Assembly: GCF_000271665.2 (NCBI RefSeq)
Contig: NZ_CP010978.1
Coordinates: 2,634,501-2,698,500, forward strand
Direction: 5' to 3'
Origin: Pelosinus fermentans JBW45
GTDB lineage: Bacteria; Bacillota; Negativicutes; DSM-13327
Length of the DNA stretch: 64,000 bases
Each line of letters begins with the position of its first letter. Positions within the stretch are counted from its first letter, which is position 1. The notes under the pieces are model-generated. The model ran no database searches. It was not told the origin of the DNA and saw only the letters and a program-made list of their open reading frames with translations. The translations under genes were made by a program, and so were the position numbers. Shown here one piece after another: positions 14,981 to 19,912 of the stretch.

Positions 14981-15046
14981 TACAATAAACCAATTGAATA
15001 ATTTATTCTACCACCTGCCTATCCTTCGTAGGTCATAATGGTGTGT

Positions 15047-15200
15047 TAGAATAGGTAGGTCTCCTGACTCTGGCTCATTACACACCTAAACCTTCCCGGG
15101 GATTCCCCAGTGGTGTATCTTAGTTGCATTCCCCAATACAGTGGCGGGACCGCGCTGGCTTCTAACCAGTCTTCCCTTTTAAGCGTAAGCACCTATTCCC
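15047..15200 (-). ncRNA. Cobalamin (adenosylcobalamin) riboswitch aptamer
   Basis: On the minus strand the conserved aptamer elements occur in order: a 5' GGTGC segment, the core GGGAA element, GCCACTG near 15138, the AATCCCCGGGAAGG element, and the B12 box region with AGCCAGAGTCAGGAGACCT near 15060-15080. The 5' and 3' edges (15191-15200 and 15049-15060) are complementary and close the helix. It lies upstream of cbiD, first gene of the cobalamin operon, so the operon is expected to be repressed by cobalamin. Confidence 0.95.
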
Positions 15201-15348
15201 ATAGAGCTATTAAATTATTGTTATATTCTAAACTTCTATGCTGTATGTATTCCACTAGCAAATAAAAATTTCCTGCTATTCTTTGATTAAATATAAAAGT
15301 TAACTTTATTTTGATAGTAGAGAACATTTTTCGACCACATTTTTAGTA

Positions 15349-16890
15349 TCACTCTTTTAGCAACAACATTTTGTCACTAATGCAGGATAAAATGATAATA
15401 GATTGTCGGTTTGTAACTGTTAAACGATCATATTCAGATTGTCTGATTAGAAAATAGGAACGCTGGCTTTCTTGAATCAACTTATTAAAATCGGTGCCTA
15501 GTACGATCTCTTTGCCATAAACGTTGGTGTAGAAAGCAAAACCAGGACGTAAGAATTTTACCACATACACTGGAGATTTGCCATCGTACTGACGGTTAAA
15601 TTCTTGAGCAATATTTTTAGTTGTGAGCATAGGCGCTGCAATGGGAAAAAGTATAGCAGTTAGAACCATGGAAAATAAAGCCATCGATATGATTTTAGTC
15701 CAAAAAGCCCGAAGGATATCGTTTTTCCATGCAAAATATGCTACCAAGGAAGACATTAAAGCAAAGATTATGGCGGATATATATATGCCATTTGCCAATA
15801 TCGGCATAGCTTTAAGCCCGATGAACATAATCCCTATAAATAATATTGTTACTATACTTAAACCTATAGACCAGCTTGTAAAATGAATTTTACCATGTGA
15901 TGTCCAAAGACGATCGATATACCAACCAACAATCATGGCTAATGGTGGGTACATAGGTAAAATATAGGATACCAGCTTTGTTTGGGAAATAGTAAAAAAG
16001 GCAAAAATAAACAATGACCATATATTTAGAAATAATAGCGTTGAAGAATCGTATGTACTTTTCGTTAGAGAATCCCATATGGATTGAATCATGATCCCTG
16101 TCCAGGGAAAGAAACCCAGAATAAGAACTGGAACATAATAATACCAGAGTACACCCTCAGGATGCTCTGGAGACGTGAACCTTGTAATATTATGAAAACC
16201 AAGGAACGTATCGACAAAGATACTTCCGTGAATATTATACATCAAGATATACCAAGGTGTAGCTATTGCAGCATAGATCAACAATCCTGAGAATATTTTC
16301 ATACTTTTTAATAGTGCCCAGTTACGTGTAGCAAGTAAATAAAAAAAGATAATTCCTCCAGGAAATAATAATCCAATAGGTCCTTTCGTTAATGTAGCTA
16401 ACCCAGCGAATAGATAGGTAATATAATATTTTTTCTCTATAAAAGCCAATAAAGAAGCAGAAAGAAAAAAAAGTAAAGTAATATCAGTTACGGCAGCCTT
16501 TCCCAAATAAAAGAATTCAATACTGGTAGCTAATACTAACGCTCCCGCAACACCGGCTCGTTCATTAAATAAGCGCCGACCCGATTGATAGACTAGTAAT
16601 GTACAAGCAACAGCTAATATCGCAGATGGAAAGCGAGCGGCAAATTCATTCATACCAAAAAGTTTATAAGATGCAGCTACTAACCAATAATACATGGGAG
16701 GCTTATCATACCAATACTCCCCATAAATACGAGGAGAAAGAAATTCATTAAAGCTAAACATTTCTTTAGGTGTTTCTGCATATACAGGTTCATCAGGATC
16801 TAACAAAGGGACTCCGCCCAAATTAAAAAATACTATTAATATTGTAATTATAGCCACCAGCCAAAAACCAGTTCCTAACTTTTTAAACAT
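15349..16890 (-). CDS. ArnT-like (GT83/PMT family) membrane glycosyltransferase
   Basis: 513-residue polytopic membrane protein. The first periplasmic loop holds LLDPDEPVYAETPKEM (residues 29-44), the acidic motif of ArnT/PMT-type enzymes, followed by YWYDKPPMYYWL and about ten hydrophobic segments. The family moves a sugar from undecaprenyl phosphate to a lipid or protein acceptor on the outer face of the cytoplasmic membrane. It is the last of four minus-strand genes with an epimerase, a flippase-like protein and a YdjC deacetylase. That context favours an amino-sugar acting on lipid A or another envelope acceptor. GGAGG precedes the ATG. Confidence 0.82.
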   Translation of the reverse strand: MFKKLGTGFWLVAIITILIVFFNLGGVPLLDPDEPVYAETPKEMFSFNEFLSPRIYGEYWYDKPPMYYWLVAASYKLFGMNEFAARFPSAILAVACTLLVYQSGRRLFNERAGVAGALVLATSIEFFYLGKAAVTDITLLFFLSASLLAFIEKKYYITYLFAGLATLTKGPIGLLFPGGIIFFYLLATRNWALLKSMKIFSGLLIYAAIATPWYILMYNIHGSIFVDTFLGFHNITRFTSPEHPEGVLWYYYVPVLILGFFPWTGIMIQSIWDSLTKSTYDSSTLLFLNIWSLFIFAFFTISQTKLVSYILPMYPPLAMIVGWYIDRLWTSHGKIHFTSWSIGLSIVTILFIGIMFIGLKAMPILANGIYISAIIFALMSSLVAYFAWKNDILRAFWTKIISMALFSMVLTAILFPIAAPMLTTKNIAQEFNRQYDGKSPVYVVKFLRPGFAFYTNVYGKEIVLGTDFNKLIQESQRSYFLIRQSEYDRLTVTNRQSIIILSCISDKMLLLKE

Positions 16891-16949
16891 TTGGTCTGCA
16901 ACCTCCGAAAGTTGAATTAATTAAGACGAGTAAGGTTTATAAGAGTAAT

Positions 16950-17008
16950 GGATATATTATTATATAACAACGCTGGTCATTTATTTGCGTGTTAATAATA
17001 ATATATCC
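16950..17008. repeat. Long AT-rich inverted repeat between epimerase and ArnT-like genes
   Basis: Arms 16950-16963 and 16995-17008 are exact 14-bp complements. The interior continues with two more 4-bp helices separated by single-base bulges, giving about 22 pairs around a 13-base loop. No T-tract follows on the minus strand. It may attenuate or process the transcript between the two genes. Confidence 0.5.
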
Positions 17009-17026
17009 TAAAGAAAAATTTAAAAT

Positions 17027-17938
17027 CTAGATAAGAGAGCGATATGTTTTAGCTAATCCCTCTAAAAGTATCATATGTGGTTGCCAGTCTAAATTTTTTC
17101 GTGCTATAGCATTTGATAAAGAAGATTTATAAATATCACCTTCACGTTTTTCATTATAGTTTCTCGTTACCACCTTGCCAGCGACATTTCCCATATAATC
17201 GATTAACATATTAATACTTGTTTCTGTTTGCGTACTAATATTACATATTTTGTTAGCATGATCGACTAATAATGATTGATAATTAGCATTGGCGACATCT
17301 CTGACGTAAATAAAATCTCTTGTCTGGCTGCCGTCACCAAAAATCAATACTGGTTGATCTTGACGAATCTTGCGAGCGAAAATACTAATAACACCACCCT
17401 CGCCCCCATCACCTTGACGCTCTCCGTATACATTGGCATACCGTAATATCATATAATCAAGACCGTAGACTTCTTTGTATAATGACAAATAATTTTCACA
17501 AGTGAACTTGCTCAACCCATAAAAAGAAGTAGGTGCTTTTTGACTTGTTTCCACTACAGGTAGTGTTGTTACATTACCGTATACTGCGGCTGTAGAAGAA
17601 AAAACAATACGCTTTACATTCATTTTTCGGCACGCTTCTAAAATATTCACAGTACCTAATATATTTATATCACAATCATAGTCTGGCATTTCTAAAGATT
17701 TATGTACCATAGTCTGAGCAGCAAGATGAATTACAAAATCAAATTTTTCAGTCATAAATATAGTAAAAATTTCATCACTACGAATATCTAACTGAATAAA
17801 AGAAGCGGCCGGATTGATGTTTTCCCTTAATCCAGTACTCAAATTATCAATAATCACTACCTGACATTTTTCTTGTATTAATTTATCAACAACATGTGAG
17901 CCGATAAAACCAGCTCCGCCAGTTACTAATACTTTCAC
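17027..17938 (-). CDS. NAD-dependent sugar-nucleotide epimerase, GalE-like
   Basis: 303 residues, extended short-chain dehydrogenase fold. The NAD-binding GGAGFIGSH motif is at residues 7-15, the catalytic Ser/Thr segment FSSTAAVYG near 120, and the YGLSK motif (Tyr-x-x-x-Lys) near 146-150. It most likely epimerises a UDP-hexose or UDP-N-acetylhexosamine at C-4. Translation starts at GTG with GGAGG upstream. It is 12 bases after the flippase-like gene, in one operon with the deacetylase and ArnT-like genes, which suggests it makes the sugar they process. Substrate cannot be read from the sequence. Confidence 0.85.
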   Translation of the reverse strand: MKVLVTGGAGFIGSHVVDKLIQEKCQVVIIDNLSTGLRENINPAASFIQLDIRSDEIFTIFMTEKFDFVIHLAAQTMVHKSLEMPDYDCDINILGTVNILEACRKMNVKRIVFSSTAAVYGNVTTLPVVETSQKAPTSFYGLSKFTCENYLSLYKEVYGLDYMILRYANVYGERQGDGGEGGVISIFARKIRQDQPVLIFGDGSQTRDFIYVRDVANANYQSLLVDHANKICNISTQTETSINMLIDYMGNVAGKVVTRNYNEKREGDIYKSSLSNAIARKNLDWQPHMILLEGLAKTYRSLI

Positions 17939-17950
17939 TCTACATTCCTC

Positions 17951-18934
17951 CTATTTAATATGATTGGCTAAAAATTTATGTCCAAACACTCTAATCGTAA
18001 AATATAAACCAATAACAAAAGGTAGATACTCGACAATAATTCGCCAGGCTACAGCTACTATTCCTACAGTTCCTGATGGCAGAAAGCTACTAAATAAAAG
18101 GACAAAACCGCCTTCAGCAATACCAGATCCTCCTGGTGTAGGAGCAAAGTATAGTAAAATGTTTAACAAAATCATCCTCCCCATAATTTGGGGAATATTA
18201 ACTGTTATGCCCATTCCCATAAACAATATTGGTACAACACTATATAAAGCTAGTAAACTGATAGCTGATTCAATAAATACTTTCCCCATGCTTAAGGGGG
18301 AAGATGATAGCATGAATACAGCACCTCTAACGTCACGATAGAGAAGAAAAATCCGACGACGATTACGATGACTAAATTTCTTTGTAAGTGTCACTAACCA
18401 ATAGTAAGGCAAACTAGTACGAAATAACCAGATCAAACCAAGAATAATGGCAATAAGTGAGGCAAAACCAATCGTAAGGATATCATCTGAAAGACCTGGC
18501 ATAATCCCTGGATCATAATAAAAAATAACTGGCAGGCAAAGCACTAAAAAAATAATAGATAACAATGTTCTAACAACTATTAATACAGTCGCTTTACCAG
18601 TAGGTACTCCTGCTTTTCGCAAAAACATGACCTGCGCCACTGCACCACCTGCAGCTCCAGGCGTTAGGAGAGCCAAAAAATAATTCCCAAAGACAACATG
18701 AACAGCTTCAATCAGGCGAATCTTTTCCCCTGAAATGGATACAAGATGCATAAGACGAATTCCATCAAAGTATAAACCAATTATTAAGAAAACAAAAGCT
18801 AAAACTAAAGACCAAGGCTGAAAACTATCAAGGTGGCGTAAGGTATGAATATCAACAGTAAAATAGATTACAATACTGGAAATACTACCTACGAACAGTA
18901 ATAAGAGAATCAGCCGTTGATAAAACTTAATCAT
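17951..18934 (-). CDS. Flippase-like (LPG synthase TM / UPF0104) membrane protein
   Basis: 327 residues with about eight hydrophobic segments and the family segments LTPGAAGGAVAQVMFLRKAG near residue 95 and PTPGGSGIAEGGFVLLF near residue 266. The family includes the membrane part of lysylphosphatidylglycerol synthase and proteins linked to hopanoid and polyisoprenyl glycolipid loci. It has no aminoacyl-transferase domain. Here it overlaps the YdjC-like gene by 8 bases. A role in moving a lipid-linked sugar across the membrane is plausible but inferred only from context. Confidence 0.78.
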   Translation of the reverse strand: MIKFYQRLILLLLFVGSISSIVIYFTVDIHTLRHLDSFQPWSLVLAFVFLIIGLYFDGIRLMHLVSISGEKIRLIEAVHVVFGNYFLALLTPGAAGGAVAQVMFLRKAGVPTGKATVLIVVRTLLSIIFLVLCLPVIFYYDPGIMPGLSDDILTIGFASLIAIILGLIWLFRTSLPYYWLVTLTKKFSHRNRRRIFLLYRDVRGAVFMLSSSPLSMGKVFIESAISLLALYSVVPILFMGMGITVNIPQIMGRMILLNILLYFAPTPGGSGIAEGGFVLLFSSFLPSGTVGIVAVAWRIIVEYLPFVIGLYFTIRVFGHKFLANHIK

Positions 18935-19781
18935 GTTCTAACTCCCTAAATGAAATTAATTGTATATGGTGGTCTATGATATGTTGAGAGATTTTTGAAC
19001 TGGTTACTGAATTTAATTCAGCTTGCCAGTGATAATTCCAGTTATACATTTTTTGTAAAATAGAATCGTTCGTTCCTGGGTGAATCATAATTTCCGAGGT
19101 GCCTTCTGGTAAAGAGGTTAATATGCGTAATAAATATTCCTCATGCATATTTCCTCCAGCTAACATTCCAAAAAAATGTTCAGGGGCAACAAATCCTTGC
19201 TTTTGTATCTTCCGCCGTGCTATTTCAGCTAAAAAAGTTAGACCTCCACGTGCTATAATTCGTGCTGTTTGGAATGGATAACCACCTAAAAATGAAAAAG
19301 GCTCAGCGGGAATACGTATTTTTTTTATGTCAAAACTTTTAGCAATGTCAATTGTAACATCAATGATCCCAGGTACAATATGCATATGTTGATGACTATC
19401 CAGATGAGTAACCGCTATTCCAGAGTCCATTACTTTTTGTACCTGAGCAGTAAGTTCTTTATGAATATCATTGAGTTTTATTTTTCCTAAACAATAGCGT
19501 CGGAAGAACTCAGGGTAATGAAGTGATAAACATCCTTCATTATTTACTAAAGAGGGTATCGTCTGAGGATCACAAAGTGGTGTTTCACCTACTAATGTTA
19601 AGTGTATACCAATTCCTAATTCTTTATTAACTGAAGCTAGCGTTATAGCATGATCAAAAGCACTACCTGAGGGCATAATGGTTGTACTGGTAATGATACC
19701 ATTTACGTATCCTTGAATAATGCCTAGGTTTACCATTTCGTTAATGCCAAAATCATCAGCATTTATGATTAATTGTCGCAT
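18927..19781 (-). CDS. YdjC/ChbG-family carbohydrate deacetylase (NaxD/HpnK-like)
   Basis: 284 residues from the ATG at 19781 (AAGGAG 10 bases upstream; the longer ORF to 19811 lacks a site). The metal-binding NADDFG motif is at residues 6-11 and the THLDSHQHMH motif near 120-129, the two signatures of the YdjC family. Members deacetylate N-acetylated sugars: ChbG acts on chitobiose, NaxD on undecaprenyl-phosphate N-acetylgalactosamine, HpnK in hopanoid loci. The neighbouring ArnT-like transferase favours a NaxD-like role. It is the first gene of the four-gene envelope cluster. Confidence 0.82.
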   Translation of the reverse strand: MRQLIINADDFGINEMVNLGIIQGYVNGIITSTTIMPSGSAFDHAITLASVNKELGIGIHLTLVGETPLCDPQTIPSLVNNEGCLSLHYPEFFRRYCLGKIKLNDIHKELTAQVQKVMDSGIAVTHLDSHQHMHIVPGIIDVTIDIAKSFDIKKIRIPAEPFSFLGGYPFQTARIIARGGLTFLAEIARRKIQKQGFVAPEHFFGMLAGGNMHEEYLLRILTSLPEGTSEIMIHPGTNDSILQKMYNWNYHWQAELNSVTSSKISQHIIDHHIQLISFRELEHD

Positions 19782-19846
19782 AGAGAAACAACTCCTTATT
19801 ATACACCTCAACTATATATGGTAGCACGTATAAGGAGATATGGCAA

Positions 19847-19912
19847 TTTGTGCTTGAATAAATTTATATAAAAGTTCAAGCACAAAGAGGAAGGAGCCTA
19901 GATTAGGCTCCT
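19847..19912 (-). terminator. Two tandem hairpins after folE2
   Basis: Downstream of folE2 on the minus strand are a 7-bp GC-rich stem (19892-19898 with 19906-19912) and then a 12-bp perfect stem (19847-19858 with 19875-19886). Neither has a strong T-tract, but together they separate the folE2 transcript from the YdjC-led operon. Confidence 0.5.

Follow-up and report, generated by a model that had tools for sequence, protein, structure and literature searches.

Four neighbouring genes of Pelosinus fermentans for most of a pathway that probably decorates the cell envelope with a positively charged sugar

The closest described precedent for the locus analysed here is the FlmF2–NaxD–FlmK pathway of Francisella, whose deacetylase NaxD is also found in Acinetobacter baumannii (PMC11279074, PMC4688374), and which combines a YdjC-family deacetylase with a polyprenyl-phosphate glycosyltransferase of family 2 (GT2) and an ArnT-family transferase. 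In Bordetella, LgmB belongs to a glucosamine modification of lipid A, in which a transferase adds the hexosamine to lipid A phosphates, a change tied to cationic-peptide resistance (PMC8168481); our locus is likened to that system by description, for its predicted hexosamine transfer. The logic is that of the Arn pathway (ArnC–ArnD–ArnT), in which a lipid-linked sugar is made, deprotected by a deacylase, flipped and then transferred by ArnT.

The window, a 64,000-nucleotide stretch of the Pelosinus fermentans JBW45 chromosome, carries on its minus strand (15349–19781) four intact, neighbouring genes whose families, named in a preliminary description from the sequence, agree with the gene calls and Pfam matches. 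The features are as follows.

18927..19781, minus strand: YdjC-superfamily N-acetylhexosamine deacetylase, candidate for a NaxD-like step (284 aa from the ATG)
17951..18934, minus strand: YbhN/AglD2-type integral membrane protein, candidate lipid-linked sugar flippase (PF03706, TIGR00374)
17027..17938, minus strand: GalE-like UDP-sugar 4-epimerase (PF01370; homology to T. maritima GalE)
15349..16890, minus strand: ArnT-like GT-C glycosyltransferase (PMT_2 PF13231; homology to Cupriavidus ArnT)
16891..17026, minus strand: gap between the epimerase and ArnT-like genes with an AT-rich inverted repeat (GGATATATTATTAT...ATAATAATATATCC), seen directly
19892..19912, minus strand: terminator-like hairpin between folE2 and the cassette (terminator call)

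The YdjC and flippase-like genes overlap by 8 bases, 12 bases separate the latter from the epimerase gene, and a further 136 bases precede the ArnT-like gene. The hairpin (19912–19892) parts the cassette from the upstream folE2, and the downstream cbi unit begins with a cobalamin riboswitch (15211–15037). Because of this spacing and these boundaries, the single operon proposed earlier is likely for the set as a whole; for the ArnT-like gene, beyond the 136-base gap, it is less sure. A terminator search of that gap (16891–17026) called none, and its inverted repeat is kept in the nearest relatives and degraded in other members of the genus. The program-listed start of the YdjC gene, a TTG at 19811, is probably too early, since the ATG at 19781, already preferred in the preliminary description, sits behind AAGGAG. 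The host is diderm, as had been supposed: it is a Pelosinus with LpxC.

The YdjC protein matches PF04794 at 231.5 bits and conserves the metal and catalytic residues D9, D10, H60, H126 and H130. Structure comparison with NaxD had been suggested; a good AlphaFold model (pLDDT 91) has the YdjC/ChbG fold and matches ChbG, CmCBDA and two uncharacterised family members strongly, and so does not tell NaxD and ChbG apart. The superfamily and the ChbG fold would also suit a chitooligosaccharide deacetylase of sugar catabolism that neighbours envelope genes by chance. We give this almost no credence, and rejected ChbG-type catabolism because the protein scores 168.9 bits against the curated ChbG model (cut-off 227), carries a segment of ∼35 residues (near 160–200) that is absent from ChbG, and has the wrong gene context, with no PTS or glycosidase genes near the cassette and linkage to GT2 and ArnT genes across the class.

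Hopanoid glucosamine synthesis by HpnI–HpnK likewise places a YdjC-family deacetylase next to a YbhN-type membrane protein, encoded by an adjacent LPG-synthase-domain gene, and HpnK is both the best NCBIfam match of the Pelosinus protein (199 bits) and its nearest named clade in a tree that held no NaxD sequence. Nevertheless, the protein falls short of the HpnK cut-off of 232.6, a model on which a Methylobacterium HpnK reaches 346 bits, and lies outside the HpnK clade, so that HpnK identity was rejected; hopanoid genes were not seen beside the cassette, and a role in hopanoid head-group synthesis is very improbable. The protein lies outside the ChbG clade as well, and by both curated cut-offs and tree the grouping with ChbG that had been named as evidence against a NaxD-like role did not occur. 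Judged on its sequence, this is neither a ChbG nor an HpnK. A genome scan for YdjC loci returned no locus from Francisella, Bordetella or Acinetobacter.

The flippase-like gene, the sole copy found in the Pelosinus genome, encodes a protein that matches LPG_synthase_TM (PF03706) at 127 bits and TIGR00374 at 69 bits, above the cut-off of 43.2; a sequence search found no homologue in the PDB. ArnE/F are small proteins, from which flippases of the YbhN/HpnL type differ. Glycolipid and hopanoid pathways also pair the latter type with a deacetylase (PMC12713373, PMC10128005).

HexSDF of C. difficile and GpgSDF of P. aeruginosa each couple, in one operon, a deacetylase with a YbhN/MprF-type flippase and yield an amino-sugar product, GpgF being in the same AglD2/YbhN family and HexF MprF-flippase-like. 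By analogy, the YdjC and flippase-like proteins might produce an amino-sugar glycolipid, built on PG or diacylglycerol, and flip it, with the ArnT-like protein acting elsewhere or with a separate donor. Loci of the Veillonella/Megasphaera type, in which YdjC is found with the flippase or epimerase and ArnT is not adjacent, and some Selenomonadaceae loci with YdjC–flippase and no adjacent ArnT, are consistent with this, as is the LPG-synthase-domain gene that also comes next after HpnK. HexRK two-component control of HexSDF resembles the regulator genes that adjoin the operon in three relatives (below). We nevertheless consider a glycolipid product unlikely. HexS is of the MGDG-synthase type and GpgS of the family-4 type, and neither system has an ArnT, whereas the glycosyltransferase partner in relatives is a GtrB/ArnC-like polyprenyl-phosphate GT2 and ArnT is the commonest partner (30 of 40 relative regions). 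In addition, the flippase-like protein scores 49.4 bits against the GlcN-PG flippase model, far below the cut-off of 320.

The epimerase matches PF01370 at 217 bits and, among solved structures, comes closest to T. maritima GalE (4zrm, E 5e-70), which acts as a UDP-glucose 4-epimerase; Tyr140 and Lys144 are conserved. At the site of E. coli GalE Tyr299 it has Ser272, shared by all 26 family members compared, and this small gate residue would permit use of GlcNAc/GalNAc, with which it is compatible without being proof. A 63% paralogue lies at genome position 845320. The ArnT-like protein matches PMT_2 (PF13231) at 92 bits and Cupriavidus ArnT (5ezm) with an E value of 4.6e-39 over 447 residues; its only NCBIfam match is PRK13279, the L-Ara4N transferase equivalog (143.8 bits, below the cut-off of 567). 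Its Tyr37, Lys63 and Arg237, equivalent to ArnT Tyr43, Lys69 and Arg254, are invariant in 35 of 35 homologues, and these residues together with the homology over most of its length assign it to the ArnT superfamily of GT-C enzymes, predicted to use a polyprenyl-phosphate donor.

An undecaprenyl-phosphate sugar synthase is indeed absent from the window, as had been noted, and the genome search for an FlmF2-like GT2 that had been suggested located two GtrB/ArnC-like candidates for this first enzyme elsewhere in the Pelosinus genome, at 2220303 and 3786477, one of them adjoining a second ArnT homologue. The GT2 at 2220303–2221238 matches GtrB (5ekp, 9e-82) over residues 4–303, membrane part included, and ArnC (9hwj, 2e-47), a full-length homology, and both genes are candidate undecaprenyl-phosphate sugar synthases. 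The GT2 at 2220303 falls below the ArnC equivalog cut-off, and the best NCBIfam score is to PgfS (270.5 and 266.2 bits, below the cut-off of 500). This score recalls Pgf of Streptococcus mutans, whose order pgfS-M1-E-M2 (a GT2, two PMT-type membrane proteins and an epimerase) is like the GT2–EPI–ArnT–ArnT run of some relatives, and an analogous GT-C system might O-glycosylate surface or S-layer proteins, with deacetylation added. However, the described Pgf system, which serves a protein acceptor in a monoderm host, has no deacetylase; the sole NCBIfam match of the Pelosinus transferase is to ArnT, whose tyrosine, lysine and arginine it conserves; and among 119 Bacillota genomes strong YdjC matches occurred only in the LPS-bearing Negativicutes. 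Protein glycosylation of this kind is therefore quite improbable.

YdjC, flippase (FLIP), epimerase (EPI) and ArnT genes occur together in 18 of the 40 relative regions, across many families of Negativicutes, and part of the set is retained in most of the others, so that the grouping is far beyond chance. The order is YdjC–FLIP–EPI–ArnT–GT2 followed by response regulator and histidine kinase genes in two genomes, ArnT–YdjC–FLIP–EPI–GT2 in one, YdjC–GT2–EPI–ArnT–ArnT in three, one of which also has the regulator–kinase pair beside the operon, and YdjC–GT2–ArnT in another. Tandem ArnT homologues are found in many relatives. In 10 of 60 relative genomes, representing six families, YdjC has a GT2 no more than 1 kb away, against an estimated chance expectation of ∼0.05, and three of the genomes with YdjC and without the long GT2 have a short GT2 inside the operon. 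Among 48 near-complete Negativicutes, YdjC is missing from five, none of which has the GT2 (p 1.2e-5, with no correction for descent). We conclude that the gene set, GT2 included, is kept across most of these outer-membrane-bearing Firmicutes. LpxC is present in 48 of the 48, and since five LpxC-bearing genomes do without the pathway, LPS synthesis as such does not include it. At least one GT2–YdjC locus has a DUF6056 membrane protein in the ArnT slot, and acceptors may therefore differ.

In the reading that we favour as probable, a polyprenyl-phosphate amino-sugar pathway takes its later steps from the cassette. Its first enzyme would be a GtrB/ArnC-like GT2, from the gene at 2220303 or that at 3786477, which would attach an N-acetylhexosamine to undecaprenyl phosphate, with the epimerase able to provide a galacto form of the sugar. 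Deacetylation of the lipid-linked sugar on the cytoplasmic side would fall to the YdjC enzyme, and flipping to the YbhN-type protein. Finally, the ArnT-like enzyme would hand the now cationic hexosamine on to an acceptor in the envelope, for which lipid A or core LPS is the likeliest candidate. From computed families, active-site residues, neighbourhoods, GT2 candidates, co-occurrence and LPS genes we infer these reactions and their order, which sugar is used, which way it is flipped and what accepts it. Of the NaxD/ArnT-type pathway first proposed, the logic is well supported, because a GT2 is present in the genome and in the same gene runs as YdjC and ArnT in relatives, YdjC and GT2 are absent together, and neither ChbG nor HpnK fits the deacetylase; GalNAc as the substrate, lipid A as the acceptor and a grouping with NaxD itself are more tentative. 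A literature search for a lipid A structure of Pelosinus or its kin found none.

The likeness to FlmF2–NaxD–FlmK is one of pathway composition and of the outcome to be expected, an envelope that bears a cationic hexosamine. Unlike that system, Pelosinus belongs to another phylum with another envelope, has a YbhN-type flippase and an epimerase in the gene run, and keeps its GT2 at a separate locus. Compared with the Arn pathway, it has YdjC in place of ArnD and a YbhN-type protein in place of ArnE/F, and the cassette lacks UDP-Ara4N genes. Because the YbhN-type gene occupies the ArnE/F slot, the cassette bears on the identity of the lipid-linked amino-sugar flippase, and the YbhN family would, if the proposal holds, gain a role in flipping polyprenyl-phosphate amino-sugars.

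More tentatively, and with rather less confidence, we suggest that most Negativicutes add an unacetylated hexosamine to their LPS, or to some other polymer of the envelope, by a dedicated GT2–YdjC–YbhN flippase–epimerase–ArnT pathway that in some members has a two-component system of its own. Diderm Firmicutes, among them common inhabitants of gut and mouth, would then share a built-in means of making the outer surface more positive, a conserved trait so far undescribed; in Proteobacteria, a more positive surface leads to cationic peptide resistance and altered lipid A sensing. With the full gene set now named, the missing GT2 included, the idea is directly testable.

ArnT–GT2–YdjC or GT2–YdjC adjacency also occurs in other phyla. 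The locus of an uncultured Succinivibrio MAG falls inside the Negativicutes clade and may therefore reflect transfer or mis-binning, and it was left out of the proteobacterial evidence. In a sample of 274 genomes from the class of a gammaproteobacterial MAG, some have a GT2-adjacent YdjC. In the plasmid collection, annotated YdjC matches were of the ChbG, HpnK or general carbohydrate deacetylase type.

The four adjacent genes described in the preliminary account, for a deacetylase, a flippase-like protein, an epimerase and an ArnT-like transferase, are all present and intact on the minus strand:

19781-18927, minus strand: ydjC, its ATG preceded by AAGGAG
18934-17951, minus strand: membrane protein, match to family PF03706
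17938-17027, minus strand: GalE-like epimerase, by family match
16890-15349, minus strand: ArnT-like GT-C transferase, by family match
15037-15211, minus strand: cobalamin riboswitch (RF00174, 107 bits), lying 5' of cbiD and of the cobalamin genes after the cassette

Upstream of the cassette lies a terminator-like hairpin 3' of folE2, and downstream the riboswitch is followed by cbi genes. Pelosinus is a spore-forming genus; the host genome, a single contig of 5.38 Mb, encodes LpxC. Its assignment to Pelosinus rests on a same-genus genome, G003, which shows complete identity, across the 3 kb compared, with a named Pelosinus contig.

The gene set is class-wide in the Negativicutes. YdjC was matched in 52 of 60 relatives; all four genes occur together in 18 of the 40 regions around YdjC matches, with a subset in most others, and an ArnT homologue lies within 5 kb in 30, often as a tandem pair. 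Because the set and its subsets recur in this way, the grouping is not due to chance. Among 119 sampled Bacillota genomes, strong YdjC matches (E 1e-40) were confined to the host and two more Negativicutes. YdjC is absent from five of 48 near-complete relatives, from four families, and all five fall among the seven lacking a long GT2, a GtrB/ArnC-like family 2 glycosyltransferase (p = 1.2e-5 by a hypergeometric count that ignores shared descent). LpxC is present in all 48, YdjC-less genomes included, and we therefore regard the pathway as accessory to LPS, not part of its making. Neither ArnT nor YdjC appears in the main text of a phylogenomic study of Negativicutes LPS genes (PMC5007114), a weak hint, from the limited literature covered, that the class-wide cassette may be previously undescribed.

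The window YdjC has conserved catalytic residues and a predicted YdjC/ChbG fold. It scores 199 bits against the HpnK model (cut-off 232.6) and 169 bits against the ChbG model (cut-off 227); most GT2-linked relatives score similarly, and like it they therefore belong to neither curated model. A tree of 96 rows puts it in a clade of Negativicutes (99/93) whose 52 rows include the GT2-linked YdjCs and a single row from a Succinivibrio MAG. HpnK forms the adjacent named clade, and E. coli ChbG, the grouping that would have counted against a NaxD-like role, lies elsewhere on a long branch; we disfavour both an HpnK and a ChbG role. A segment of ~35 residues near 160-200, shared with GT2-linked relatives and absent from E. 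coli ChbG, might, at a guess, contact the membrane.

No Und-P-GalNAc synthase had been seen in the window, and two candidate undecaprenyl-phosphate sugar synthases are encoded elsewhere in the host genome. The gene adjoining YdjC in relatives encodes a GT2 of 331-339 aa, within 1 kb in ten relatives of six families, and its two close host homologues occupy 2220303-2221238 and 3786477-3787400. Along its length, the first matches by sequence both GtrB (5ekp, 9e-82) and ArnC (9hwj, 2e-47). The second directly adjoins another ArnT homologue; this pair (L248, 3784775-3787412) may be the remnant of a fuller cluster, since its paralogous counterpart in G002 (L084) also includes YdjC and a flippase. 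The most complete gene orders are YdjC-flippase-epimerase-ArnT-GT2-response regulator-histidine kinase in G011 (L087) and G031 (L243), ArnT-YdjC-flippase-epimerase-GT2 in G016 (L249), and YdjC-GT2-epimerase-ArnT-ArnT in G050 (L081), G039 (L244) and G013 (L246). G011, G031 and G016 lack the long GT2 and carry a short one inside the operon instead. Genes for an OmpR-type response regulator and a histidine kinase come immediately after the cassette in L087, L243 and L244, and after YdjC in L251, which suggests regulated expression in several lineages.

The transferase matches the Cupriavidus ArnT structure across 447 residues, and its invariant Tyr37, Lys63 and Arg237 align with the tyrosine, lysine and arginine required by Burkholderia ArnT (PMC5377068). 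It scores far under the ArnT equivalog cut-off; we therefore call it ArnT-like and do not claim Ara4N use. The epimerase, which has a 63% paralogue elsewhere in the host genome, carries Ser272, invariant in 26 members, at the position of E. coli GalE Tyr299. A small residue there allows N-acetylated substrates without proving them.

We infer, as the most probable mechanism, a pathway in which GT2 would produce Und-P-HexNAc (HexNAc, N-acetylhexosamine), YdjC would remove the acetyl group, the YbhN-type protein would flip the deacetylated lipid-linked sugar, and the ArnT-like enzyme would move the hexosamine onto an acceptor outside. The same logic applies to NaxD with FlmF2/FlmK (PMC11279074, PMC4688374) and to glucosamine addition by Bordetella LgmB (PMC8168481). 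The acceptor is most probably lipid A or core: these are where ArnT homologues act, the host has LPS genes, and, purely by analogy, the two-component genes by some operons recall PmrAB or HexRK control. The strongest rival is a HexSDF/GpgSDF-type glycolipid (PMC10128005, PMC12713373), with which the flippase type agrees, as does YdjC with flippase but no adjacent ArnT in some relatives. Pgf-like protein glycosylation (PMC5856776) is possible, given the recurring GT2, epimerase and two GT-C proteins. With GT2 candidates located and the gene set class-wide, the NaxD/ArnT-type pathway first proposed is partly supported and extended.

Beyond the class, a genome scan gave named loci at which GT2 adjoins YdjC in Aminicenantes, Acidobacteria, Desulfobacterales, Omnitrophota and others, and the two genes also adjoin in some Gammaproteobacteria; a Magnetococcales MAG has ArnT-ArnT-epimerase-YdjC-GT2 and an Omnitrophota MAG ArnT-GT2-YdjC. 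The Succinivibrio-labelled MAG contig (L162, ArnT-GT2-YdjC), placed within the Negativicutes clade, may reflect transfer or mis-binning. At L245 (6823-9443), GT2 and then a DUF6056 protein (~550 aa, identified by scanning this gene) in the ArnT slot lie beside YdjC, and L153 and L175 have similar layouts; this protein may be another kind of GT-C that acts on another acceptor.

The gap between epimerase and ArnT (16891-17026) holds an AT-rich inverted repeat that the nearest Pelosinus relatives share; in others it is degraded. In several relatives the folE2/ydjC interval holds a gene for an Eco57I/TaqI-like N6-adenine DNA methyltransferase of ~650 aa, identified from two scanned genes (L062:5579-7531, L067:4394-6382); genes of similar size occur in L065, L066, L070 and L071.
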